Source: a virus. Taken from it: a stretch of DNA of 64,000 nt. Shown here one piece after another: positions 13,957 through 63,728 of the stretch; position 1 is the first letter of the stretch; every line of letters starts with the position of its first letter. Position numbers and translations under genes: made by a program. The notes under the pieces were generated by a model that saw nothing but the letters and a program-made list of their open reading frames with translations, was not told where the DNA came from and ran no database searches. The stretch lies in IMG/VR virus record IMGVR_UViG_3300046542_000332, positions 20,720 to 84,719 of that record; one strand, given 5' to 3'.

Positions 13957-14053
13957 TGTCTGTACGTACGCAGTAGTCCCATTTACCGGTCAGCGTACAG
14001 GCGGTTTTGAGCCCTTCCGGACGGCGCTTTGCACCATCTGGAGGGCGTGCGCG

Positions 14054-14563
14054 TTAGGGTTCCAGGTCAGCGGTGACGACCTCATCAGGGCGCGGATTGA
14101 CCAGGTACTTGCGGGTGTATGGCGATATGTTCACGCTACCGGTGACGTCGACGATCTCGTAATTGATGATCAGGCCGTCACCCATCAGCAAGGCCACCAG
14201 CATGCGCTTGGCGGGCTGCACGTAGCCGGCGGCACCAGGCTCAAGGATTGGCTCGATGGACGCCTCTGTCACCCCTTCGGCGTAGTCCAGGCGCGCCCCG
14301 TTGTCGGCGGTGTTGCCCAGCGGCGCCGCATAGCCTTGAGCAAAGTGGATCTTGGCGTCACACGCATACACCCACGAGTAATTCACCTCGTCCTCATCGC
14401 TGATCACGCCCACGCCCCCCAGGTCGGGATAGCCGTCAACGCTGGCGCCCTCCGACACCCGGTCGACCTGCTTGGTGAACAGCACACAGTCGATGGCGTT
14501 TGGCTCGCGTAGCGTGCGCTGGCGGTTGGCCCGGTTGATCTGTATTGCGACGTTGTTGAGCAT
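14054..14563 (-). CDS. Virion protein near portal, unknown
   Basis: 169 residues, beta-rich, no membrane segment. It lies between the SWIM-zinc protein (4 nt upstream) and portal (97 nt downstream). A head-completion or minor head role is plausible from position. Nothing specific can be read from sequence. Confidence 0.55.
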   Translation of the reverse strand: MLNNVAIQINRANRQRTLREPNAIDCVLFTKQVDRVSEGASVDGYPDLGGVGVISDEDEVNYSWVYACDAKIHFAQGYAAPLGNTADNGARLDYAEGVTEASIEPILEPGAAGYVQPAKRMLVALLMGDGLIINYEIVDVTGSVNISPYTRKYLVNPRPDEVVTADLEP

Positions 14564-14566
14564 GTC

Positions 14567-15637
14567 TTAACCCTGTGCGTTGTCGGCGGCGGTGATGGCG
14601 ATACGGGCGGCCTGTTCGGAGTAGCCCAGCTTCATCATGGCCTTGATTTTCTTGTCCAGCGGCACCGGCTTGTTGACCTTCGCCGCGTGCGTTTTGCGCA
14701 ACTGATCGTTCGCCGCCTTGACCTTGGCCGCCTCGACGGCTTTGCGCTGCTGTGCGGGCTGCGCGGCACGCTCCAGGCGCTTCTCTTCGGTGGTCTTGAT
14801 CGTGCGGTCCCGCTTGCGGACGCTGGCGGCCTTGTCGAGGAACGCCTGCTGCTCTTTGACGGTCATCACCTGCTGTTTGCCGCTCAGCGTCTTGCGTCCG
14901 TACTCGATCATGCGTTGGGCGAAGTTGTTGAACGTCCCGCTATGCCCCAGCGTGCCCATCACCTTGACGACGTGCTTGCAGGCCACCCCGTACAGCTTGG
15001 GGTTGCGGATACGCGGGAAACCGTCCTCGGCCCGGCCATAGTTGAAGTTGCCAATGCTGGCGATGAACCGAAACCAGAAGGTGTGACGGTTGCAGCTGCA
15101 ATCGTATTTGACCTTACCGCGCGCCAGCAGCTTTGCCGCCTCGTGCGCCGGCTGGCCACCCGACAGCGCCGCGTCGTAGGCGAGGAACTGCACCATCACC
15201 GTATGGCGCGCGACGTTGGAGTTTGGCCCGGAGTTGGTCTGAAACTGCACCACGCCGCCCCGGTTGACGATCGGCATCACCGAATGGATTTGCCGGTTGG
15301 CGCGCTCCCTGTCCTGCGGCGTGGACAGGTCGATCACCTTCTTGACCAGGATCCCGCCAGACGCCTGCTTGCTGTGCTGGCCGTGCATGCGCTGAATGTC
15401 TTTGACGGCAGCCTTAAACGCCAGGATGTCGTCAAAGGTGAGCATGCGGGGCTTGCCGTCAATCGTGGTGAACAGCGCCCGCTTCGGATCGTACAGGCCG
15501 CCCATGTCGTCGGCCGACAGAATCCGGTCCTGGTCGCCAAGCCGGCGCTTTAGATCGAACTCAAACGCCTCGCGGGCCTCCTTGGCGGCCTTGCGCGCAT
15601 CCTGTACCAGATTCGACCGCTGATCATTGGCCGCCAT
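14567..15637 (-). CDS. SWIM-type zinc-binding protein of the head module
   Basis: 356 residues from ATG 15637, overlapping the upstream stop (TGATG); a TTG at 15640 is also possible. Around residues 180-230 it has C-x-C (YDCSCNRHTF) followed about 40 residues later by C-x-H (VACKHV), the CxC...CxH layout of SWIM zinc domains, which bind DNA or protein. The ends are Lys/Arg/Ala-rich helices. It may be a minor head protein or DNA-binding virion protein. I recognise no closer family. Confidence 0.6.
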   Translation of the reverse strand: MAANDQRSNLVQDARKAAKEAREAFEFDLKRRLGDQDRILSADDMGGLYDPKRALFTTIDGKPRMLTFDDILAFKAAVKDIQRMHGQHSKQASGGILVKKVIDLSTPQDRERANRQIHSVMPIVNRGGVVQFQTNSGPNSNVARHTVMVQFLAYDAALSGGQPAHEAAKLLARGKVKYDCSCNRHTFWFRFIASIGNFNYGRAEDGFPRIRNPKLYGVACKHVVKVMGTLGHSGTFNNFAQRMIEYGRKTLSGKQQVMTVKEQQAFLDKAASVRKRDRTIKTTEEKRLERAAQPAQQRKAVEAAKVKAANDQLRKTHAAKVNKPVPLDKKIKAMMKLGYSEQAARIAITAADNAQG

Positions 15638-25476: not shown

Positions 25477-25736
25477 TGCGCGCCACCATCGACGAACACG
25501 ATTGCGTTATTGGTCATGCGGACAAACACCGCTGTATCACCCACCAGCTCAGCGAGCGTCGTCATGTACTGGGCTACGCGCGCCAGCGGCAACCCGGCGA
25601 AGCCGATGCCCTCCAGCACGAAAGAAAGCTCGCCAGCGATAGGAGCGGCGACAGGAGCCGGACACCCGCCGTGGGGCGAGCACATACCCGGCGTCTGGCA
25701 GGGCTGCATTGATTTGCGGCAGATCATGGCGCTCAT
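25473..25736 (-). CDS. Cys-rich small protein
   Basis: 87 residues. The first 25 have four Cys (CRKSMQPCQTPGMCSPHGGC), likely a metal site; the remainder is a helical domain ending in DGGAQ. It overlaps the 25733-26356 gene by 4 nt. Function unknown. Confidence 0.55.
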   Translation of the reverse strand: MSAMICRKSMQPCQTPGMCSPHGGCPAPVAAPIAGELSFVLEGIGFAGLPLARVAQYMTTLAELVGDTAVFVRMTNNAIVFVDGGAQ

Positions 25737-26356
25737 GGCTTCCTCCCGCGCACTGAGTGGTCGATAGCTTGGTCAATATGCTTGGCGCGTAGGTGCTCAT
25801 CGCATACGTGCAGGTTTACCCAGTTGTCCAGATAGCCGCCATCGCGCAGCTTCTGGTAGCGCTCAGCGTTAGCCTCAGCCTCTACGCGGCACTGGTGCGG
25901 CGTCTTGCCCTCTACCCGTTGCAGGGTGACAACCAGCGAGCCGAGTTCCGGGTGCGTGGCACTGTCAAAGCGCAGCTCCAGATAGTTGATGGCCTTGCTC
26001 TCATAGAACTGATCGCCGAACACCTGAGCCAGCATGCCGCATGCGCCGCCTTCAAAGCCCAGCGTCATACCGCCATCGCCCGGAACCAATCCGGTCAGCA
26101 TGGTGGAGGTCACGACCTTTTCGGCGAGCAGATTGCGCAGGCGTTCGTTCTCAGCCTTGAGCTGATCGCGTTCCTGCATTGTTTCCATGCGGAATGCACC
26201 ATGGGCGCCATACGCAACGGCGGTCATTCTCTTTGTCTCGGCGAGCAGATGCAGGGTATCGCCGGAACTGGCGCCTATGCCGCGCTCGGCGTCTTGCTTG
26301 ATTCTGGCCAGGTGGTCGGTTGTGATCGGCGCCGGCGCTGAGGTGGACTTACTCAT
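25733..26356 (-). CDS. Coiled-coil protein after TerL
   Basis: 207 residues from ATG 26356; upstream in-frame codons lack a ribosome site. A coiled coil runs through ERDQLKAENERLRNLLAEK (near 65-85). The C-terminal half is a mixed domain without a recognised motif. It follows TerL by about 70 nt. Confidence 0.55.
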   Translation of the reverse strand: MSKSTSAPAPITTDHLARIKQDAERGIGASSGDTLHLLAETKRMTAVAYGAHGAFRMETMQERDQLKAENERLRNLLAEKVVTSTMLTGLVPGDGGMTLGFEGGACGMLAQVFGDQFYESKAINYLELRFDSATHPELGSLVVTLQRVEGKTPHQCRVEAEANAERYQKLRDGGYLDNWVNLHVCDEHLRAKHIDQAIDHSVRGRKP

Positions 26357-26426
26357 AAGGTTTATTCCGAGTATGTGGGGCGGGCGCCAGCATATCAGCG
26401 GAATAGCCATTATCAAAACATTGTTT

Positions 26427-27992
26427 TTAAGTGATTCCGGCAAGAGCCTCGCGGGCAGCATCAAGTGCGGCCTGTCGCCTGTCCGTACTGAGGCTGACGG
26501 CTTCGCCTTGCGCAGGAACGTAGTCCGCCGACTCCAGGAACGCCATGGCGATGGTGTCCAAAAGGTCGGGGGATGGTAGACCCTCGGCGGCCATGTCCTG
26601 CTTGCGGGCGATGTGGTACCGCCCCAGCTCGTCCAGGAAGTAAGGAATACGGCTGCCCTGGTCGATCAGATCCTTTTTGTACTGGCTCGACAGGCGTACC
26701 ACGCCGTCCTTGATCGCCTCGACCGCGTGCACGGTGCACTGCGCCCGCTGGTTGAGGAATCGCTTGCGGTAGTCGTTGGAGAACGGCAGTTCGCCCCAGC
26801 GCACGCCCTTGGCATGGATACCGCCGCCCGACAGCTCTATCAGCCGCTTGAGGAACTGGTTACCCATGCCGTTGGTGTCGACGATGATCGTCACGTTGGA
26901 GAATTGCGCGGCGTAGTCCAGCACCTTGACCGCCACCGGTGTCCAGTCCTCGGTGTTGGTGTAGACCGGCACGCCCACCACTTCAATCCGGCGCCGGTCG
27001 GCGGTCATTCGATCCCCGTTGCCGATCACCTTCATATGCGTGGCCACGGTCTTGTCTCGCCCTACGCCAGCCGCCACGTCGACCACGATCAGGTGACCGT
27101 ATGCCTCGCCCGGCAGGATGACGTTCGGGCCTTCAATGACGCGCTCAAGGGCTGCCTGGCTGAGCAGGTACTTGCTTGAGTTTGTCGGGAACATGCCCCG
27201 GACCTTGATCTGGTATTCCATTTCATCGCGCCCACCGTACTGAATGAGCTTTTCCTTGATGAACTCGATCCCCACGAGCGTGCTCTCTTCGGAGCTGAAC
27301 GTGAGGCTTGTCCACGCCCCGCCCTGGCGCTTGCTCTTGCTATGGTGCGAGTCACGGAAGAACCCGCTACTACGGGTTGGCTGGCTGGCCATGATGAACC
27401 GGTTACGCGGGTCCGTGAGGGCGCCGCCGATAACGCCGAAGTTTTCGTCCGGGATGCCTGAGGCTTCGTCCGCCATCCACATCAGATAGTCGCCGTGGGT
27501 ACCGGCCAGGTTCTCAGGCGAGCCGCGTGGCGCTGTACGGGTGGTGACGTACCAGATCGCCGACTTGGTGTTGATGTAGACCTTTTCGGCCTGGATGGTG
27601 ATGTACTGCGCGATCCAGGCGTGCGGGCCTTTCTCGATCTGCGCCTTGAGGGTGGTGATTTCCTTCCACACACCCTCTCGCACCGTCTTGAGCTTCGGCG
27701 CGGTGATGTAGGTGTTGGAGTTGCGATAGCAGAGCAGGTGCCACAGGGCGATAACGCCGAAGGATCTCGTTTTTCCAGTCCCGTGGCCAGACGCCACCGA
27801 CACCCGGCAACCATAGGGCGATGCCTCGTCGAATAGTTCCTTCTGCTGGTGCGTTACAGGCTTGCCCACAATGCCCATGCCGCAGACTTCGACCGCGAAC
27901 TTGTACTGTTCGAAGGCGTACCGGGCGACGAACGCGGGCCAACGCGGATCCGCGTCGAGCACCAACTGTTTTTCTTTCTTCGCCTTGGCCAT
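26427..27992 (-). CDS. Terminase large subunit (TerL)
   Basis: 521 residues. ATPase domain: Walker A GHGTGKT at 69-75 and Walker B LMWMADEA near 170-177. C-terminal RNase H-like nuclease: likely acidic residues D305 (LIVVDVAAG), D372 (IIVDTNG) and D476 (PDLLDT). It packages genomic DNA through portal and makes the cuts, partnering TerS at 30898-31983. A terminator at 28010-28034 lies only about 20 nt before its start, separating it from an ATPase-like paralogue. Expression therefore needs read-through, antitermination, or a promoter I cannot see. Confidence 0.9.
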   Translation of the reverse strand: MAKAKKEKQLVLDADPRWPAFVARYAFEQYKFAVEVCGMGIVGKPVTHQQKELFDEASPYGCRVSVASGHGTGKTRSFGVIALWHLLCYRNSNTYITAPKLKTVREGVWKEITTLKAQIEKGPHAWIAQYITIQAEKVYINTKSAIWYVTTRTAPRGSPENLAGTHGDYLMWMADEASGIPDENFGVIGGALTDPRNRFIMASQPTRSSGFFRDSHHSKSKRQGGAWTSLTFSSEESTLVGIEFIKEKLIQYGGRDEMEYQIKVRGMFPTNSSKYLLSQAALERVIEGPNVILPGEAYGHLIVVDVAAGVGRDKTVATHMKVIGNGDRMTADRRRIEVVGVPVYTNTEDWTPVAVKVLDYAAQFSNVTIIVDTNGMGNQFLKRLIELSGGGIHAKGVRWGELPFSNDYRKRFLNQRAQCTVHAVEAIKDGVVRLSSQYKKDLIDQGSRIPYFLDELGRYHIARKQDMAAEGLPSPDLLDTIAMAFLESADYVPAQGEAVSLSTDRRQAALDAAREALAGIT

Positions 27993-28062: not shown

Positions 28063-28752
28063 TTACCGCCCGCTTTGCGCGCCTTCCAGGGTGCAAACGT
28101 CCCACGGCCCGCCCTGGTCCTTGCTCAGCTTTCCGCGTGTGGCGGCCGCATACCCCGACTCACGCCAAGGCCTATTGGTGAGCACCATGCCGTTGCCCGG
28201 ATCGGTCATATGGGCGCACGCCATGTAGAAACACGCATCAGGGATGTCGTGGGCTTCCTCCATCAGCCAGCAAACGTGCTCACCGTAGAAGCCGGCCAGC
28301 GCCTCGGGCATTCTCGCGTCGGCACAGAGGAACCGGATTTTCGCGCCCATGGACTGGCGCCTCAGGTGGATCTGGTGAGCGTCAAGGCTGATATAGGCGC
28401 GCAACCAGCTATGGGAGCCCTCGACCATCCAAGTCAGCAAGCGCACGTATTGCTGCTTACGTGCACGGCCGCCTCCATGAGGAATGACCACCAGGGTTTG
28501 GGATTCGGGGCGACACAGCAGGCGCCAGATCGCGATAGGCGCCATCGGGCTGATGCCATCCCATCCATGCAGGTCGATGTCGGTGGCGATGGACACACGG
28601 CAGCCAGGGAGCGAGGCAAGGCAGTAGACGTGGGCGAGTGCTGGCGTTACCTCCATGCCGAAGACATCAGCGGCAAACGCGCACAGGTCGTTGGCGTAAC
28701 GCTCGATGAACGCTGGCCACCGCGCATCCTCATAGAGCGGTGTCAGGCTCAT
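28063..28752 (-). CDS. Inactive TerL ATPase-domain paralogue
   Basis: 229 residues that align along their whole length with the first 235 residues of the TerL at 26427-27992. Shared pieces include DxRWPAFxxRYA, PxGCRVSxA, WRLLC/WHLLC, WMxxEAxxIPD, MTDPGN/LTDPRN, and QGGPWDVCTL/QGGAWTSLTF. The Walker A GHGTGKT is replaced by DIDLHGWDG, so it should not bind ATP normally. The Walker B-like CWLMEEAHDIPD is kept. No nuclease domain follows. It looks like a duplicated, catalytically dead ATPase module that could regulate TerL or TerS. It overlaps the upstream gene by 4 nt. Confidence 0.8.
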   Translation of the reverse strand: MSLTPLYEDARWPAFIERYANDLCAFAADVFGMEVTPALAHVYCLASLPGCRVSIATDIDLHGWDGISPMAPIAIWRLLCRPESQTLVVIPHGGGRARKQQYVRLLTWMVEGSHSWLRAYISLDAHQIHLRRQSMGAKIRFLCADARMPEALAGFYGEHVCWLMEEAHDIPDACFYMACAHMTDPGNGMVLTNRPWRESGYAAATRGKLSKDQGGPWDVCTLEGAQSGR

Positions 28753-29339
28753 CGGGACGCCTCCAGCAACTTGGCGCGCTCCAGCTCGGAAAAGATCAGC
28801 GCCACCGCCTTGGTCAGCGCCTCAGCTGGCGGGCACACTTTGATTTTCGACTTGAACGGCCAGAAGCTGGTGTAGCGCATCGGGTACACACCGCCCGCCT
28901 GCATCGCGTAGCACGCCGCTGCACGCGCCAGCTCGCCGGCCTGGTACTGCTCCAGGTCGGTGGCCAGCGTATAGCCCTCTTCCTCGCGCTGGCGCTTGTG
29001 CTCATTGAGCGCCGCCATCACTTCCGGGCTCACCCCCGGAACGTTCGCATGCAGCGGCATGGCCGGCTCATAGCCCAAGGCTCGACGCTTTGGCCAGCTC
29101 GGCGACTCGGGACCGGTCGGGCGCTGTAGGACGATGCCCACCGCCTTGCCGCCGCGACGGTTCACCCACGCCAGCGGCGGCTCGCCACGGTCGCCAAACG
29201 GAAACGCCACGCTCTTCCACACCGCATAGGCCGCTTGTGTGTGGTCGTTGACGTACTCGGGGCCGACCTGCTCCAGGTCCGTGATACCGGCCTGGCGCGC
29301 GGCATACTCAAAATCAGCCCGGTTCAAGAAGAGCGACAT
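28749..29339 (-). CDS. Conserved phage protein with GELARAAACYA motif
   Basis: 196 residues. The C-terminal half has the pattern YQAGELARAAACYAMQAGG, then a Trp/Lys stretch, then EALTKAVALIFSELERAK, a small helical domain seen in many phage proteins of unknown role. The N-terminal half includes basic segments near 90-100. It overlaps its neighbours by 1-4 nt. Confidence 0.65.
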   Translation of the reverse strand: MSLFLNRADFEYAARQAGITDLEQVGPEYVNDHTQAAYAVWKSVAFPFGDRGEPPLAWVNRRGGKAVGIVLQRPTGPESPSWPKRRALGYEPAMPLHANVPGVSPEVMAALNEHKRQREEEGYTLATDLEQYQAGELARAAACYAMQAGGVYPMRYTSFWPFKSKIKVCPPAEALTKAVALIFSELERAKLLEASR

Positions 29340-29791
29340 CAGCTGCGCCCCTCTTCCACCAGGATCGGGACGAACTTCAACCGATCCTCAATCAACGCCA
29401 CGTCGGCGGCGGTATAACCTCGCGCCAGACGCCCGTTTACCAGCGGCACCAGTAACGTGCGGTGAATCTTGGTCCCGTGCGCCACATAGTCACGCAGGCC
29501 GCGCAGCACCACCGCCTCGGAGCCCTTGTAGGGGAACCCCAGCCAGAAGCCGTTGGCGCCCTTGGCAGTGCTGTGCAGGTCGATGGTCGGCGTTTCCGGG
29601 TTGTGGTCGCGGAAATGGACGCGGCCGTCCACGGTCAGGCGCAACCGGCACAAGTCGCCGTCGGTGTTCGCCCACATCTTGGTGCCGACCTTGGCTATCT
29701 CGGCCAGCACCGTGTTGGCGTGGCGCAGGCGCATCAGGCGAGTTTCCCGGTGCAGGTTGGTGGCGCGTGGCTTGCTCTCTGGCTGACTCAT
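29339..29791 (-). CDS. Unknown protein in packaging/early operon
   Basis: 150 residues with a mixed helix-strand pattern and many basic residues. It overlaps the following gene by 1 nt and starts 7 nt after the zinc-finger ORF. No family is recognised. Confidence 0.55.
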   Translation of the reverse strand: MSQPESKPRATNLHRETRLMRLRHANTVLAEIAKVGTKMWANTDGDLCRLRLTVDGRVHFRDHNPETPTIDLHSTAKGANGFWLGFPYKGSEAVVLRGLRDYVAHGTKIHRTLLVPLVNGRLARGYTAADVALIEDRLKFVPILVEEGRS

Positions 29792-29993: not shown

Positions 29994-30614
29994 TCAATCC
30001 CCGGCCTGGGTGGTGCGATGTTTGATCATCAAGTCCGCGTACTCCCAGCGGCGAATAACATGCTGCTCCAGCTCTTGCTCAGTGGGATGCTTCCCCAAAG
30101 GAGGGATAGGCGCATGCAGGGCGAAGTCGTCGCGCAGGTCGCTCAGGTACTGCGCATCGCCCGTCGACTTGAGCGACACACCTTGAGTGCTGACCAGCTG
30201 AGCAGTGGTTGTCTTGAGTGATTCACGAAAGGCCTTACGTTGCTCATGGAGCGGCTGGTGCTCAGGGGCTGGTGCGCACTCACGCGGCAAGTCCAAGGCC
30301 GCACGCGCCACGGCACGCTCGGCCGCTTGACGCTCGGCGCGGACCTGGCCAACGGCGGTATTCAATGGCGTTCTGAGAAAGCCGTCAACATAGGAGCGCA
30401 GCAGCTGGGGGGTTACCGGCGCACCCGCACGGCCGCGCTCAATCGGCAGCCAGCGAGTACCACCGGGCACCTGAACGTGGAAAAACTGTCCAGCCCCCGA
30501 ATCGCGCACCCGCAGGCCGCTTTCCACCAGGTATGCACGGAATGCCGGGATCTGCTCCGCACTCACCAGGCCGGTATCATTAACAATGGTCGTTGTAGCC
30601 GCTACGTTCTGCAT
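29994..30614 (-). CDS. Unknown protein
   Basis: 206 residues. N-terminal 75 residues are beta-like (FFHVQVPGGTRWLPIERG), then a coiled region (ERQAAERAVARAALDL). No catalytic motif is recognised. It begins 5 nt after the XRE-type gene. Confidence 0.5.
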   Translation of the reverse strand: MQNVAATTTIVNDTGLVSAEQIPAFRAYLVESGLRVRDSGAGQFFHVQVPGGTRWLPIERGRAGAPVTPQLLRSYVDGFLRTPLNTAVGQVRAERQAAERAVARAALDLPRECAPAPEHQPLHEQRKAFRESLKTTTAQLVSTQGVSLKSTGDAQYLSDLRDDFALHAPIPPLGKHPTEQELEQHVIRRWEYADLMIKHRTTQAGD

Positions 30615-30619
30615 TGTTA

Positions 30620-30901
30620 CTACTCCTGTGACTTAGCCTTGAATGGCGTTAAGTTTTCTCGCCTGCCTTGGCGTAATGTCGCCCGCTTCTCTGCCTTCAA
30701 CGGCAGCGGACGAACCCATATTTGTCCGGTTTTGAACTGGTACAGCTCCCACAGGCCGATCTTCATCGGTACAGAGCCGTCTTCGTAGGTCTGCCAGGCG
30801 CGACGGCTGACATGGATCAGCGCGGCGCTGGCCCGCTGACTCAGGCCGGTGGTAGAGCGCGATTGCTTCACCTGGTCCGCTGTAGGGCTGCAAGGCTTCA
30901 A
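30620..30901 (-). CDS. XRE-type helix-turn-helix protein
   Basis: 93 residues. Residues about 8-45 form an XRE-like helix-turn-helix: ADQVKQSRSTTGLSQRASA, then HVSRRAWQTYEDGS. It overlaps the end of TerS by 4 nt, an unusual place for a regulator. A role in timing of the packaging operon is possible. Confidence 0.6.
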   Translation of the reverse strand: MKPCSPTADQVKQSRSTTGLSQRASAALIHVSRRAWQTYEDGSVPMKIGLWELYQFKTGQIWVRPLPLKAEKRATLRQGRRENLTPFKAKSQE

Positions 30902-31983
30902 TTCACGATCCCTATCTTGGCCAGCTCTTCGGCCCGACCGGCCATGGCTGCGCGGTTGGCCTCGGTGTTCGCCTGGGCCTTAGCCAGGATTTCGTCCAGC
31001 TGCTCGTCGCTGACGGCCAATGTCACAGCTACGGCCGGCTCTACGTTCATGTTGAACAGCTTCGCCAGGGAGTCGCGGTAGCCTTTCTGACTGGCCACCT
31101 TGAGTTCGGTCCCGTCCTTGCCTTCCTTCACGCCTTCAAACAGCGTCAGGGCGGCTGGTGACAGGTTGCTGGTGTCCTTGAACAGCGCCCGGCCTTCGCC
31201 TTCACCGTCGCACTCAGGGCAATCGTAATTGGGTGGCTTGCGGCCGTCGTAGCCAATGCCCCCCAGCTCATCAAACTCGCCAATGGTCTTGCTCTCGGCC
31301 TCGGCGGCGGCTTTATCGGCCTCGTACTGCTGGCGGCGGCGCTCCATTTCACTCGGGCGCAAGTGAAACTTGTGGTCGATGCCGTAGCAGTAGCGGCAGC
31401 ACCGACGCACGTACTCGACCAGCTCACGCGGATCGGCAAACGACGCCGCGTGATAGGTGGCAATGAGCTGGTTTTGAACGTCGGCCGTGCGTGCAAACAG
31501 CTCGACCTGGCGCGCCAGGGTATAGGGGTGGTTCTTAACCTTACTTAGCAGTCGACTGGCAGCCGCTGAGGCCACGTTGTCGTTCTTGCAGGTAAAGCCC
31601 GCATCCCGGTAGGACTGGCTCGCGTTGTAGGTCACTAACCACAGGTCGACAAACTTCGCCTGGCGAGCGTCCAACCCTTGGAAAGCCGCCATTTCCATGG
31701 CTTTGCGCTCTTTCAGGCTGAGCTTTACCGGGTTCTTTATCGCGGTCGTGCCCACCTTGGGCTTGGTGCCCTTAGTCGCCGGCTTTGCAGCCTTTGCCCC
31801 TGGCTTCGCCGCCGCTTTAACCGGCTTTTTGGCTTCCGTGGTGGCCGGCTTTTTGCTGCTTTCCACCTTGTTAGCCTTAACTCCACGCGGTTTAGCAGGT
31901 TTGCGAGGGCGCGCAGTAGCCACGGACGGGGATAAATCATCCCTCGACACGGCAGGTTTATCAGTCTCTGGCTTGCGCGGCAT
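30898..31983 (-). CDS. Terminase small subunit (TerS)
   Basis: 361 residues. Residues 1-85 are a Lys/Ala/Pro-rich tail (KKPVKAAAKPGAKAAKPATK) resembling histone H1. Residues about 100-150 are a TerS DNA-binding domain: DARQAKFVDLWLVTYNASQS, NDNVASAAASRLLSKV. Residues about 190-270 hold Cys pairs (CCRYCYG and CPECDG), a likely zinc site. TerS recognises the packaging site and loads TerL. It is longer than typical TerS because of its tail and zinc region. The hairpin-rich non-coding segment just upstream is a candidate packaging site. Confidence 0.8.
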   Translation of the reverse strand: MPRKPETDKPAVSRDDLSPSVATARPRKPAKPRGVKANKVESSKKPATTEAKKPVKAAAKPGAKAAKPATKGTKPKVGTTAIKNPVKLSLKERKAMEMAAFQGLDARQAKFVDLWLVTYNASQSYRDAGFTCKNDNVASAAASRLLSKVKNHPYTLARQVELFARTADVQNQLIATYHAASFADPRELVEYVRRCCRYCYGIDHKFHLRPSEMERRRQQYEADKAAAEAESKTIGEFDELGGIGYDGRKPPNYDCPECDGEGEGRALFKDTSNLSPAALTLFEGVKEGKDGTELKVASQKGYRDSLAKLFNMNVEPAVAVTLAVSDEQLDEILAKAQANTEANRAAMAGRAEELAKIGIVN

Positions 31984-40646: not shown

Positions 40647-40989
40647 TGACAGTTACCCCTTCGGATTCGATAATGGTGCGGACTTCATCAAGCGCCGCGT
40701 TTCGGCCTTCGCCGCTCATGCTGTAAATCGGTTGGCCTTGGTAGTTGATCGGTTGGGCGCGCGCCGGCAAGGTGATCACCAGCGCCTCCCGCGACAGCTT
40801 CCAGGCCGCTTGGAAGGCGGGCCACTGCTCCCCGCCTTCAATAAAGCTGTAATACGGGCGCCCCTGCTCCAACTGGCGCGTCAGGTTCTGGCGCATCGAG
40901 TCGGTGAACGCGTGGCCAGCGGCTTTCATCAGCTCACTGTGCTGGTCGATCAACAACGCCTCAAAGGCGCAACGCATACGGTCGCTCAT
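40639..40989 (-). CDS. Small unknown early protein
   Basis: 116 residues from ATG 40989 (ATGA overlap). Mostly helical; FIEGGEQWPAFQAAWKLS in the centre resembles segments in other small early phage proteins. Unknown function. Confidence 0.5.
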   Translation of the reverse strand: MSDRMRCAFEALLIDQHSELMKAAGHAFTDSMRQNLTRQLEQGRPYYSFIEGGEQWPAFQAAWKLSREALVITLPARAQPINYQGQPIYSMSGEGRNAALDEVRTIIESEGVTVSE

Positions 40990-41843
40990 ATGGACACCGC
41001 ACGGGCAGGGCTGGCCAGACGGCGAAGGTACTCGACAGCCATCACCACCGGGAAAATCGCGAACAGACCGGCCTCGCAACTTTCATCCTTGCGCATCTGC
41101 ATAGAGCCCTCTTCGATAAAACACCAGCCCCCGCGCTTGCCATTGCCTGCTTGGTAACCGTAGAAGAACAGGAAACCGTCTTTGCTCAGCACAAAGTGCG
41201 AAGCGTGGCGGGCGTCGGTCAGCATGCGTTCCAGTTCCGGGAGGTGATCAAGGCTCAGCTCCCCCGGCAGCGCCCGGTCATCACCAATCAGGATCGGCGG
41301 CAGACGGTTTTCCTGCTCACACCGCCAGCGCACCCACGTATGGCTCTTTACCGGGCCGTTATCGTTGGGGATATGGGCGCGCAATACCTGCTCGCGGCCA
41401 CTTGGCGCCCGGTACTTGGGCTGCTTGATCGGCGGCGGGTTCTTTTTGCGCGGTACCAGCTTTTCAGGGCTGATAGCCGAAACCGTCGGGGCCGGCGCAG
41501 TTGTGGCCACCGGCTCAGGCTTTGGGGGAGTGTCGACCACCGGCGCCGGCGTGGCGGCCTTCACAGGGGCCGCGATTGACTGCGGGCGCGGCGCCGGCTT
41601 CAACAGCTCCGGGCGCTCTTCCAGCTCGATCACATCCTCGGGGATGTCATCACCAACGGTCAGGGCAGCAATGCAGCGACCTTGGCCCTGCTGATCCTCA
41701 ACCCATTGCACCAGCGCCAGACCGCGCGCCAGCAACAGATTGAGGTTGGTGTGGCCGCACTGGCGCAGCAGGCCGTCCACGCGCGCCTTGGATGCGTCGG
41801 ACATGCTGAACATGATGTCGTGGCGCACTGGTCCGGTACTCAT
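40986..41843 (-). CDS. Early protein with Pro/Ala linker
   Basis: 285 residues. Residues about 80-140 are a Pro/Ala/Lys-rich linker; the C-terminal part (RAHIPNDNGPVKSHTWVRW; FYGYQAGNGKRGGWCF) is a compact domain without a recognised motif. It may link two functions. Overlaps the next gene by 4 nt. Confidence 0.5.
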   Translation of the reverse strand: MSTGPVRHDIMFSMSDASKARVDGLLRQCGHTNLNLLLARGLALVQWVEDQQGQGRCIAALTVGDDIPEDVIELEERPELLKPAPRPQSIAAPVKAATPAPVVDTPPKPEPVATTAPAPTVSAISPEKLVPRKKNPPPIKQPKYRAPSGREQVLRAHIPNDNGPVKSHTWVRWRCEQENRLPPILIGDDRALPGELSLDHLPELERMLTDARHASHFVLSKDGFLFFYGYQAGNGKRGGWCFIEEGSMQMRKDESCEAGLFAIFPVVMAVEYLRRLASPARAVSI

Positions 41844-44157: not shown

Positions 44158-44300
44158 GCTTCTTTCACCCGATCAGCGCTCGGCGCTGGCATGTACATTC
44201 CGCCCGGCCCGCGCCACACGCCGAACCGGTCTACGGTGCATTCGCGCCAGCCGCCGGCATTGCCGTAACGAGGCGCGAACCAAACGAGGCGCTTGGTCAT
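44154..44300 (-). CDS. 48-residue protein between two coupled genes
   Basis: Short gene, ATG 44300 to TGA 44154, overlapping both neighbours by 4 nt (ATGA each). Contains WRECTVDRFGVWRGPGG. No domain recognised; coupling at both ends supports it being real. Confidence 0.5.
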   Translation of the reverse strand: MTKRLVWFAPRYGNAGGWRECTVDRFGVWRGPGGMYMPAPSADRVKEA

Positions 44301-44989
44301 TCCTTCCCCCCGGCCTCAGCGCTGGCGGCCAGGCTTTTACGCTCTTGCTCGATCCAGGCCAGTATCCCGGCGCCTGAGTTGTACAGGTGCGCCACCCGCC
44401 CAGCGTTCGCAATCGCTTGTGCCGCCGGATTGCGCTCGCCCAGCGTGGCCAGGGCTTCGCGGAATTGCTCGACGTAGCTCTCTGTCGAGGGGGCGCCCCA
44501 GCAATTCACCAGGCAATCGTCGTCCGGCCCGCCGCCTTCGTCCTCGTCGCTCGACTCGCCCGGTACCATTAGAAACTCACGCTCTACGGCATGCAGGTAA
44601 TCAGAAAACCGCTTCATATTGCCGAGACAGGTCAGCAGCGTGCTGGGGGTGCGCGCCAGCTGCCCCGTGCCGAACACGTCATAGACCTTTTGGAGTGTTG
44701 CCGCATCGCCTTGGTACTGCATTGGCTGACGGTAAAGCGGGCCTTGCTCTTCAAGCCATTGCTGAACCTCGCCGCCCGACCACATCTTGCGCAGCATGGT
44801 GGGAAAGTGCAGCTGTGCCGGCGCAGATTGGTACTCGGCTGGTTTTTCCAGCTCGGCAATACGCGCCAGCGCGGCGTCCAGGTGCTTGGCGTCCACGTAC
44901 TGAGCTTGGGCCAGGTCGCCAGTGGCAAACCGCAGGGTGGTGGCGCTATGGCGCTCTACTTCGACGGCTGGGGTTGCTTGGTTATTCAT
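44297..44989 (-). CDS. Helical early protein
   Basis: 230 residues from ATG 44989. N-terminal half helical (AKHLDAALARIAELEKPAE), acidic block EDEGGGPDDD near 150, then helices. Unknown function. Overlaps the LigA-like gene by 4 nt. Confidence 0.5.
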   Translation of the reverse strand: MNNQATPAVEVERHSATTLRFATGDLAQAQYVDAKHLDAALARIAELEKPAEYQSAPAQLHFPTMLRKMWSGGEVQQWLEEQGPLYRQPMQYQGDAATLQKVYDVFGTGQLARTPSTLLTCLGNMKRFSDYLHAVEREFLMVPGESSDEDEGGGPDDDCLVNCWGAPSTESYVEQFREALATLGERNPAAQAIANAGRVAHLYNSGAGILAWIEQERKSLAASAEAGGKE

Positions 44990-45354
44990 GGGGCGATTCC
45001 GTAGATGTCTTTGAGTGGGGTTTCGCCGTGCTGGCGGCAGAGCCAGACCACGGGGTCCAATTTGTGGAACGGCAGCTGATACCCGGTACCCGCCGACAGC
45101 GCCGACCGGTCGCACATATCCTTGTAGCGGTGCGTCACCTGATCCCAGCCGGCCAGCAGCGTTTTGCAGAGCTTGTCGAAATAGCTATCAGGGACCACCG
45201 GCGCATCGAGCACGTAATAGCGAATGCTGTGCTCCAGATATTCGCCATACGCCGCGTTGAGCGCCTGGCTGTCCTTGGTCGCCACCGGTACCGGCTTGGA
45301 TGTCTCGGCCGGCATGGCGAACAGGTCGGGCTGTACTTCTGCGCGCCGCTTCAT
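44986..45354 (-). CDS. LigA-related small protein
   Basis: 122 residues. Contains AYGEYLEHSIRYYVLDAPVV and SYFDKLCKTLLAGWDQV, reminiscent of the N-terminal Ia domain of NAD+-dependent DNA ligases, as in small phage LigA-related proteins. The adenylation domain is missing, so it cannot be a ligase alone. It might bind NAD or modulate host ligase. Family call is moderate. Confidence 0.6.
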   Translation of the reverse strand: MKRRAEVQPDLFAMPAETSKPVPVATKDSQALNAAYGEYLEHSIRYYVLDAPVVPDSYFDKLCKTLLAGWDQVTHRYKDMCDRSALSAGTGYQLPFHKLDPVVWLCRQHGETPLKDIYGIAP

Positions 45355-45701
45355 TGTTCTGACTCTAAAGCGCTATAACTCTTAAGCGTCTTGGCGCTTT
45401 CTTCCCGCTCAATGAATCGCTCACGGGCCTGGCGGGCTTTCATGCCGACCTCCGTAGGGATCGAACCGAAAGGCTCCCCGCCTTCACGATTAAAACTGTC
45501 CTCGTCGTTCGCGTAGAAGGCGCAAACCTCTTCAAGGATATGCAGCTCGACCAGCGCCGGGTTGGCCTTGAGTGCCGCCAGCGCCCACCCCATAAGCCCA
45601 GCACGAGCCATGGGGCGTACAGACCGGGCATTGCCCACCAGCCAGCTTTGCAGCTCAGCGGCTTCGGCCTGATCCTGTTGTGCATCGGTCAGGCCGCTCA
45701 T
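45351..45701 (-). CDS. Small helical early protein
   Basis: 116 residues from ATG 45701. Helical throughout (AELQSWLVGNARSVRPMARAG; MKARQARERFIEREESAK). C-terminus encoded inside an inverted-repeat element. Unknown function. Confidence 0.5.
   Translation of the reverse strand: MSGLTDAQQDQAEAAELQSWLVGNARSVRPMARAGLMGWALAALKANPALVELHILEEVCAFYANDEDSFNREGGEPFGSIPTEVGMKARQARERFIEREESAKTLKSYSALESEQ
45365..45398 (+). repeat. Short inverted-repeat element, copy B
   Basis: AAGCGC...GCGCTT around TATAACTCTTAAGCGTCTTG, across the 45351/45354 gene junction. Best copy of this junction element family. Confidence 0.5.
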
Positions 45702-61001: not shown

Positions 61002-61736
61002 TTACTTGCCGATCAGACGTTGGCGCAAGCGCATGGACTTGGCGCGTTTCATCTTCGCTTGGCCCGAGAAGGCTTTGCGCTGCATCTTGCGCACGGCGCC
61101 TTTCTGCGCAGCGGTCAGGCGGACGGTGCCGCTGATACGCTTCTTGATGCGAACCTTCTTGCCGCCACGGACGGCCACGACCTTTTTGTAAACCGCGTCC
61201 ATCATTTCGTCATCATCGCCGCTGACAAACTTGTCGGCGTCATCGAGCATGGCGTCCTCGCCCTGCGGCATCTTGTCGAGCAGCGCATCGTGAATGCGGG
61301 CGGCCAGGTCGTTGTCTTCCAGGTTGCCACTCAACAGTGCATCCACGTCGGCAGCATCAGCGCCCTTGCCTTCCAGGTAGTCGCCCACCAGTTCGGCCAC
61401 GGTCGCGGCGTAATCGGCTTCGTCGTCCGAGATTTCTTCGTCACCGTCGGTGGCATTGCCCACGATCAGCGCGTACAGACGATCAGCAAAGCCTTCGCCC
61501 TCTCCCAGTTCCGACTCGGCCCACTCGTGAACGATGGCCACGGCATCCTGGCGCATTTCGTCAGTGATCAGGGCGGCCGGCGCGTTCGCCGGATCGATGG
61601 CGTCGAGCATGGCCTGAGCCAAGGGAGTCAGCTCAGGGACTGGCTCGGGAACGATGGCCGGGGCCTGCACTGGCGCGGTGTAGGCCTTATTGATGGCGGC
61701 GCTCGCGGTGAGCACGTTTTTCAGTAGCATTTCCAT
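61002..61736 (-). CDS. Bipolar acidic/basic structural protein
   Basis: 244 residues. About residues 70-180 are acidic, rich in D and E (EEISDDEADY, SGDDDEMMDA), while the last 60 are strongly basic (KKVRIKKRI, KMQRKAFSGQAKMKRAKS). No fold recognised. It could neutralise DNA or bind a partner by charge. Between sheath and the 392-residue tail protein. Confidence 0.5.
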   Translation of the reverse strand: MEMLLKNVLTASAAINKAYTAPVQAPAIVPEPVPELTPLAQAMLDAIDPANAPAALITDEMRQDAVAIVHEWAESELGEGEGFADRLYALIVGNATDGDEEISDDEADYAATVAELVGDYLEGKGADAADVDALLSGNLEDNDLAARIHDALLDKMPQGEDAMLDDADKFVSGDDDEMMDAVYKKVVAVRGGKKVRIKKRISGTVRLTAAQKGAVRKMQRKAFSGQAKMKRAKSMRLRQRLIGK

Positions 61737-61746
61737 GAAATTCCCC

Positions 61747-63396
61747 TTAAGTGCGGACGATCGACTGCTGGTTTTCGATAACGCGCGCGGTACCGTCGTA
61801 GCAAATGGCAGTATCGATGTTCATTTTTTCGAATGGCTGATTGGCATTCGCCTGGATGTTCGCCGACCAGCAGGCGCCGTCGAGTTCTGCGCTTGGTTGC
61901 AGCCAGCCCGCCGATTGCAGTGCCGGCAAGAACGTCTGGACGAAATTGGTGGTTTTCTCGATGGCCTTGGCCATTGGCTTCTGCAACGATTCCTGAGCCA
62001 CGGAGGCCAGGGTGTCGTCCACGTAGGTCGCCATTTCAACCACGGCGATCAGCTTGGTCGCGCCTTCGGTCTGCGCACCGGTCAAGGAGTCAACCCAGGC
62101 GTATTTACCGCCGCTGGCGTAGTCCTTGTAGATCACCGGGTTGATGCGGCTGGCGGCCAGATCTTCCATTTCGGTTTCTTCGTCCGGCTCGTAGGTCTGC
62201 TCCATGCTGGTCCGGTTGACGGCGTAGTCAGAACCGGCGATCACCTCGTTTCGCTTGGCGATGCCCTTGGCGTTGGTGATGGCGTTGCGAGCGCAGCGCA
62301 GGCCGATGTTCAGGCCCGAGGTACCCATAAACGCCTTGCCGCCCACGACCGGGTTAGTGGCCTTGATAGGCGCCCAGTAGCATTGGCTGTACAGGCTGTC
62401 AGTGGCGCCGCCTACAGATTCGTAGAAGGTGATCGCGGCCGCTGGCGTGAAGCGGCCAGGGATGTCCCATACCACTTGCTTGTTGATGTCCTTGCCCAGG
62501 TCCAGCAGGCGGGAAATCAGGGCCAGGCTTTCGGTACCGCCGCCACCGATGTAGGTAAAGGACGGCTTGGCGCGCTTGATACGATCAACCGCCGCGTCCA
62601 GGTCTTCGGTGCTATACAGCGTGGCGCCTTCGGTGAAGTACGACAGGGTGGCCGAACTGTAGATGTCCTTACCGCTGGCCTTGCCGTAGAACACGCAGGC
62701 GACCGGTACCGAGGCGTCAGGGTGAACGTCCACAACCTGCAACAGGTCGGTGTACAGCTCCACGATGTCGCCGATGTAATAGCTCTGGCCGAACTCATCG
62801 AGCGCCGCCGGATCGAGCGAGCCCTTGTAAGGGCCGAGAACGATGGCGTTGGTGGCCACGTCGCGCAGTTGCAGGGTGATGATTTTGGACGCCGCCGGGT
62901 CGCCTTGGGCGTCGGTGGCCGCATCAGCATGAATCTCAGCCTTCACGCCGTCCGAGAAGCATTCCAAGTGCTTGATGGCGATCAGGTAGCTACCGGTCGC
63001 GCCGGTTTCTTCGTCCACCAGGCTCCATACCACCGGGGCTGGCTGGCCTTCTGCGGGAGCGACAGCGGCGGTGGCCACCATCAGCTTGTTTTCAGCGTCC
63101 GCACTCACCAGGCGGGACACGACGGCCTGCACGGTGCCGGACTTGAGGGCTTCGTAGATGTGCACATACGGCTCACCCAGCGCGCTCACCGACAGCGACT
63201 GCGCCGCGCCCAAGGTGCGTTTTTGCTTGTTACGCGATACCGCGAACGCTTTATCGATACGCCCACGGGCGAAACGGCCAACGATGGCCATGTTATGCGC
63301 CACGGTGCTGACACTCGGAATTTCCGACATGTCATTGATTGGGTTGACTTGAACGCCAGACCGCTTATTAACCGTGCGGGAAAAAGGGATGGTCAT
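61747..63396 (-). CDS. Tail sheath protein
   Basis: 549 residues, usual sheath size. Contains NMAIVGRFARG near the N-terminus, AGSDYAVNRTSMEQTYEPDE, ASRINPVIYKDYASGGKYAW and the C-terminal helix region MATYVDDTLASVAQESLQKP. The sheath contracts to drive the tube through the host envelope, the defining part of a contractile tail. It overlaps the 110-residue gene by 1 nt. Confidence 0.82.
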   Translation of the reverse strand: MTIPFSRTVNKRSGVQVNPINDMSEIPSVSTVAHNMAIVGRFARGRIDKAFAVSRNKQKRTLGAAQSLSVSALGEPYVHIYEALKSGTVQAVVSRLVSADAENKLMVATAAVAPAEGQPAPVVWSLVDEETGATGSYLIAIKHLECFSDGVKAEIHADAATDAQGDPAASKIITLQLRDVATNAIVLGPYKGSLDPAALDEFGQSYYIGDIVELYTDLLQVVDVHPDASVPVACVFYGKASGKDIYSSATLSYFTEGATLYSTEDLDAAVDRIKRAKPSFTYIGGGGTESLALISRLLDLGKDINKQVVWDIPGRFTPAAAITFYESVGGATDSLYSQCYWAPIKATNPVVGGKAFMGTSGLNIGLRCARNAITNAKGIAKRNEVIAGSDYAVNRTSMEQTYEPDEETEMEDLAASRINPVIYKDYASGGKYAWVDSLTGAQTEGATKLIAVVEMATYVDDTLASVAQESLQKPMAKAIEKTTNFVQTFLPALQSAGWLQPSAELDGACWSANIQANANQPFEKMNIDTAICYDGTARVIENQQSIVRT

Positions 63397-63728
63397 TACT
63401 TGGCCTCCACGGCTTTAGTCTTGCCCTTGGTTTCAGCTGGCACTTCCGGCGCGACCAGAACGGCGAAGTCGTCGGCATCGTTGTCGGCGCGGTGCGCCAG
63501 CTCAGCCAGATCCGTGACCAACAGCCAGGCCTGGTCAAAACTCTTGACCTTCACGCTGACCGGCTCACCGGGCGCAATCGGGGTATTGATGCCCGAGGAC
63601 GGGACCACCAATGGTTTGTTGTGCTTGTGCGTCAGAGACGCCACAAACGGCAATGCCTGACCGGCCACCAACTTTTCAGCCAGTGGGCGCGGGGCGCTGC
63701 CAGATTTTCGATTAATCGTTACGGTCAT
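63396..63728 (-). CDS. Small virion protein before the sheath
   Basis: 110 residues, beta-rich with Pro/Lys ends (VPAETKGKTKAVEA). It overlaps its neighbours by 1-17 nt. Small head-tail joining or completion proteins often occupy this place; sequence alone is not diagnostic. Confidence 0.52.
   Translation of the reverse strand: MTVTINRKSGSAPRPLAEKLVAGQALPFVASLTHKHNKPLVVPSSGINTPIAPGEPVSVKVKSFDQAWLLVTDLAELAHRADNDADDFAVLVAPEVPAETKGKTKAVEAK

Follow-up and report, generated by a model that had tools for sequence, protein, structure and literature searches.

A P-loop-less, nuclease-less copy of the TerL ATPase domain encoded next to TerL in P1-type phage-plasmids

We analyzed a 64,000-nucleotide stretch of DNA (the window) from an IMG/VR virus record of 84,719 bases with genes of the P1 type. 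These include genes for a portal protein (phrog_1497), a baseplate protein, a PmgG-like head-morphogenesis protein, an integrase and TerS (Terminase_2 match), and the nearest named relatives are the Pseudomonas phage-plasmids CP048608, pKF715C and the SM1 plasmid. Large ORFs that match neither PHROG nor Pfam families at E 0.001 are found at 61693-63660 (plus strand, 655 aa), 44269-45378 (plus strand, 369 aa) and 40986-41843 (minus strand, 285 aa). The window encodes an intact TerL with the motifs GHGTGKT, WMADEA and SQPTR and the nuclease aspartates D305, D313, D372, D476 and D479. Next to it lies a shorter gene related to its ATPase domain, which we call the dead gene. The genes and features around TerL are as follows:

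25733..26464, minus strand: 243-aa gene 3' of TerL
26427..27992, minus strand: intact TerL (P1 PacB type), 521 aa
28013..28034, minus strand: GC hairpin and T-run just 5' of the TerL start, with the stem at 28034-28013
28063..28752, minus strand: the dead gene, a paralogue of the TerL ATPase domain without P-loop and without nuclease domain, 229 aa
28749..29339, minus strand: 196-aa gene, function unknown, directly 5' of the dead gene (ATGA overlap)
29339..29791, minus strand: 150-aa gene, function unknown, in a variable block between TerS and TerL
29994..30614, minus strand: 206-aa gene
30898..31983, minus strand: TerS (Terminase_2, phrog_51), 361 aa

The dead ORF (28063-28752, minus strand) begins with an ATG within the ATGA overlap with the gene upstream. 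In BLASTP, residues 9-227 of its product align with residues 15-237 of TerL at 33% identity, with an E value of 1e-36 that refers to this single pairwise comparison. The initial annotation had proposed this match to the TerL ATPase domain, and the alignment extends over nearly the whole length of the protein. The replacement of the P-loop and the loss of the nuclease domain, described in the same annotation, were both confirmed: Walker A is absent, with SIATDIDLHGWDGISPMAPIAIWRLLC at the position of TerL SVASGHGTGKTRSFGVIALWHLLC, and the ORF ends at about TerL residue 237 without a nuclease domain following. A frame check of the locus restored the P-loop in no frame of either strand, which rules out a frame error. 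Two relatives from other metagenome records (L014 and L016) have the same Walker A loss, and a sequencing error is thereby excluded.

The AlphaFold2 model of the dead protein has a pLDDT of 91 and a pTM of 0.90. Its top PDB matches in Foldseek are the TerL ATPase domains of P74-26, Sf6, D6E, HK97 and T4, rather than a fold unrelated to terminase, the outcome named beforehand as speaking against the assignment. Since the alignment supplied to the model contained TerL rows, this support is not independent of the sequence homology. With the fold model matching TerL and no frame restoring the P-loop, the description of the gene as a duplicated, catalytically dead module of the TerL ATPase is upheld. 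The dead protein also matches the phrog_5902 profile (E 2e-17, residues 6-219), but this match does not discriminate, because the intact TerL of the window matches the same profile (E 5e-70). Pfam gave no match for either protein, sequence searches of the PDB with profiles of the dead protein or of TerL returned nothing useful, and the PADLOC models contained no family for the dead protein at E values up to 0.1.

Searches based on TerL recovered 41 further loci, the flanks of which we read for the dead gene; scans for close relatives with the dead protein alone found nothing in viral or genome contigs. The same gene pair, which the initial annotation had suggested looking for in other phages, is present in P1-related Pseudomonas phage-plasmids, where the dead gene is intact in 12 distinct copies, that of the window included. 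All 12 copies lie directly 5' of TerL and 3' of the same 196-aa gene (28749..29339 in the window), a conserved neighbor among the Pseudomonas relatives, and start within an ATGA overlap. They group in a single clade (100/99 support), and their branches greatly exceed those of TerL in length. The dN/dS ratio in close pairs is 0.16-0.33 for the dead gene and 0.04-0.11 for TerL. The dead gene is thus under purifying selection and evolves several times faster than TerL, although its fast divergence can also reflect weak constraint. The dead gene persists across TerLs of 67-76% likeness, and its groups broadly match the TerL groups. It is a real, old and selected gene and not a decaying copy.

We compared the columns that are invariant or nearly invariant in 39 TerLs with the 12 dead copies. 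The Walker A lysine K74, present in all 39 TerLs, is retained in none of the dead copies, and neither are the Q-motif residue Q50 or Q204 and T206 of the coupling motif (SQPTR). The Walker B aspartate D175 is likewise missing from all 12, each having E instead, and the catalytic E176 survives in a single copy (1/12), that of the window itself. R198, just before strand 4, is also retained in one of the 12; it is a candidate trans-arginine finger, guessed from its position by reference to that given for D6E (PMC5727402). The residues D15, R17, R24, Y25, F32, R63, W126, P159, E160, A163, G164 and W227 are retained in 10-12 of the 12 dead copies. The residues dropped are those that handle ATP and the residues retained those of the fold, and the sequence of the dead protein predicts no ATP-driven DNA packaging. 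Like TerL/PacB of the P1 and D6 types, the dead protein has a homologous ATPase domain with the same predicted fold and keeps the N-terminal DxRWxxFxxRY and PExLAG segments. Unlike them, it has no Q-motif, Walker A, Walker B aspartate, coupling motif or nuclease domain, and its gene evolves faster and is accessory.

The dead gene is not present in all close relatives. The TerL of L013 is 98% identical to that of the window, and the dead gene is absent with a clean junction: the DNA aligns up to where the 196-aa gene ends and again from within the TerL leader, leaving 689 bases (28081-28769) that only the window has. The gene is also absent from L017 (TerL 97%), L015 and L005. L018 and L022 contain only an ORF of 50-60 aa, whose product matches the C-terminal tail that the dead proteins carry in L004, L019 and L023. 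These lone-tail ORFs are located 5' of TerL (L018:7745-7950, L022:7745-7940), so the tail occurs both alone and fused to the dead domain. In L031 and L009 the TerLs are 93% identical and the flanking DNA is 82% and 87% identical on the two sides; their dead genes are unalignable as DNA and encode proteins with 38% identity. This pattern looks like gene-precise allele exchange. These comparisons show the dead gene to be an accessory, swappable element that is gained and lost as a unit.

Between the dead gene and TerL there is indeed a terminator-like hairpin, as had been noted, but the separate control of the two genes deduced from it is not supported. The scan found one such hairpin against a mean of 0.8 in shuffles, but a hairpin recurs at the same spot in relatives, including L013, L017, L015 and L005, which have no dead gene. 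The stem is 20 bases from the TerL start codon. The hairpin belongs to the leader with which the TerL gene begins, whether or not the dead gene is present, and a terminator separating the control of the two genes is therefore rejected. The short spacing leaves no space for a promoter, so TerL transcription would have to cross the hairpin, which would make it an attenuator and not a separator.

P1-like enterobacterial phages carry a second PacB without nuclease domain, which corresponds to phrog_5902 ('unknown function' in PHROGs). The copy of MH422554, annotated there as 'terminase large subunit', matches phrog_5902 with an E value of 5e-184 and is located between ssb and hxr; in pB2C_96 and pCUVET20-PYO4.3 the gene is a neighbor of phd/doc, and in a Citrobacter plasmid it is flanked by ref and mat. 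Like the dead protein of the window, it is a nuclease-less copy of the PacB ATPase domain. All four copies examined have lost the catalytic glutamate and have E, R, H or C in place of the Walker A lysine. It differs from the window's gene in not being located beside pacAB, in retaining a GxG remnant of the P-loop and in being mostly longer (364-366 aa in three of the four copies, which lie 3' of an isaA-type gene). The AU test rejects a common clade of the Pseudomonas and enterobacterial dead copies (p 0.00033, with long branches as a caveat), and with it a single origin. With the same caveat, the enterobacterial copies represent a second, independent origin. A total of 120 plasmid records match the MH422554 copy at an identity of at least 80%. 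The reference phage P1 has no second PacB, its place being occupied by IS1 and isaB, and P1 isaA (L060:938-1729; NC_005856 21737-22528) corresponds to the gene that accompanies the dead PacB in the cassette of P1-like phages, with 97% identity over 264 aa. In P1 the ssb promoter P2ssb, located 5' of isaA, is next to a C1 operator, which suggests that the P1-like copy beside its isaA-type partner could be expressed early in the lytic cycle.

Relatives of the window also contain ten ORFs with the TerL nuclease domain only, one of them a weak match (L031 10748-11632, E 1.7e-4). Such copies are located 3' of TerL in L018, L019 and L022, within homologues of the 206-aa gene in L003/L025, L009, L031 and L046, and elsewhere in L023 and P. 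psychrotolerans; the homologues in the window and in L026 have no insert. At the positions of D305 and D313, all ten nuclease-only copies have lost the aspartates that 33 of 33 TerLs keep. The dead nuclease inserts are in frame and in mid-gene (L009:5177-6457, L003:3170-4465, L031:5145-6437, L046:5161-6444; none in L026:6532-7122), and the model of the nuclease-insert protein was poor (pLDDT 58) and was not used. In the copies directly 3' of TerL the first aspartate is replaced by valine (L018:9523-10482, L019:9602-10321, L022:9558-10451). ATPase-only, full TerL and nuclease-only genes follow one another in L019, and in L018 and L022 a segment homologous to the 243-aa gene of the window is fused behind the dead TerL nuclease domain. 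Two independent origins of the ATPase-only copies, together with nuclease-only copies that all lack the same aspartate, suggest that the loss of catalysis is the point.

The retention by selection of a disabled copy of half a motor suggests that it interferes with or regulates packaging rather than performing it. As ATP handling is lost and the core of the domain retained, we infer a binding role: a folded TerL ATPase domain without ATP-handling residues or nuclease would bind and not catalyze. The dead protein would take the site usually filled by the TerL ATPase domain, either within the portal-bound TerL ring or directly on TerS or portal, and packaging would be blocked or slowed. The best explanation, to which we give an even chance, is a TerL pseudo-ATPase, a binding-only mimic that blocks or slows packaging, preferably that of rival phage-plasmids. 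An action on the terminase/portal assembly is itself probable, while interference with the packaging of rivals falls somewhat short of an even chance. In the preferred version the main target would be the packaging motors of related phage-plasmids sharing the cell, and the competition would take place at the packaging step.

The effect of inactive subunits on packaging motors has been described for three phages: the T4 motor accepts some but then packages less efficiently and more slowly, the phi29 motor tolerates one, and the lambda motor was concluded to tolerate none, a single Walker A mutant subunit stopping it (PMC8589836). A non-catalytic mimic of the TerL ATPase is favored because dead subunits poison or slow packaging rings; those subunits were laboratory mutants of the full protein, whereas the dead protein is a natural ATPase-only paralogue. 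The small satellite proteins Rpp and Ppi act on terminase and block or redirect the packaging of a rival, Rpp by binding TerS and mimicking its DNA-binding part (PMC6739421). Unlike the dead protein, they are not TerL homologues and are encoded by satellites.

Control of the phage's own motor is the nearest rival explanation, close behind, though unlikely in absolute terms. The dead protein would join or cap its own TerL or TerS-TerL complex and delay, slow or gate packaging, for example by preventing cleavage of pac while the phage persists as a plasmid, or premature cleavage during lysis. The location of the dead gene within its own packaging region, in the same block as TerS and TerL, the ATGA translational coupling to its neighbor, its persistence across diverged TerLs with broadly matching groups, and the possibly early-lytic expression of the P1-like copy, suggested by the C1 operator at P2ssb, are consistent with such a regulator. 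However, L013 and L017 have almost the same TerL and no dead gene, the exchange of alleles only 38% alike would be surprising in a protein dedicated to a TerL that hardly varies, and the P1-like copies are found outside the pac operon in accessory places. Presence and absence, allele exchange and repeated origin fit competition better than a dedicated subunit of the phage's own motor. We found no basis for discrimination between self and non-self, though an inhibitor directed at rivals should spare the nearly identical TerL of its own phage.

An exaptation of the TerL fold as a binding scaffold with a role other than packaging, such as lysogeny, partition or anti-restriction, is improbable. 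The completely rewritten active-site face, the location of the P1-like copy between ssb and hxr or beside phd/doc and not at pacAB, and the C-terminal tail on some copies, also found as the lone ORF of L018 and L022, would agree with it. The constant position of the dead gene directly 5' of TerL in the Pseudomonas phages argues against it, as do the parallel nuclease-only copies, which suggest that TerL contacts are what gets copied. Decay of a functionless duplicate is very improbable: although the gene is missing from several relatives and only a partial copy exists in L020, the 12 ORFs are intact over a deep divergence, the start-codon coupling is retained, conserved residues are lost selectively and not at random, and dN/dS values well below 1 in close pairs rule out a pseudogene.

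We tentatively consider, as a doubtful but wider reading, that P1-type phage-plasmids repeatedly evolved split pseudo-terminases (ATPase-only and nuclease-only TerL copies, both kinds non-catalytic) as weapons or immunity against related phage-plasmids at the packaging stage. No description of a TerL paralogue or pseudo-terminase was found in the open-licence literature; subscription journals may have reported the P1-like copy earlier. If terminase interference is true, packaging would be a step of phage competition beside the TerS-directed tricks of satellites, packaging motors would have a naturally occurring dominant-negative tool in the dead protein, and phrog_5902, found in about 120 sequenced P1-like plasmids, would gain a function.

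Several relatives have inteins or intein-like insertions within the TerL Walker A loop, namely L005 (5221-7497), L010, L016 (7974-10292), L017, L033, L044 and L049, the site in L005 being exactly GHG^TGKT. A connection between the intein and the dead gene was considered and rejected: L016 carries both, while L005 and L017 carry the intein alone, so there is no consistent relation. The P. psychrotolerans plasmid pPRS08-11306 (CP018759.1) encodes two full TerLs with equal scores (13969-15507 and 108211-109749), and its nuclease-only copy is located at 79932-80954.
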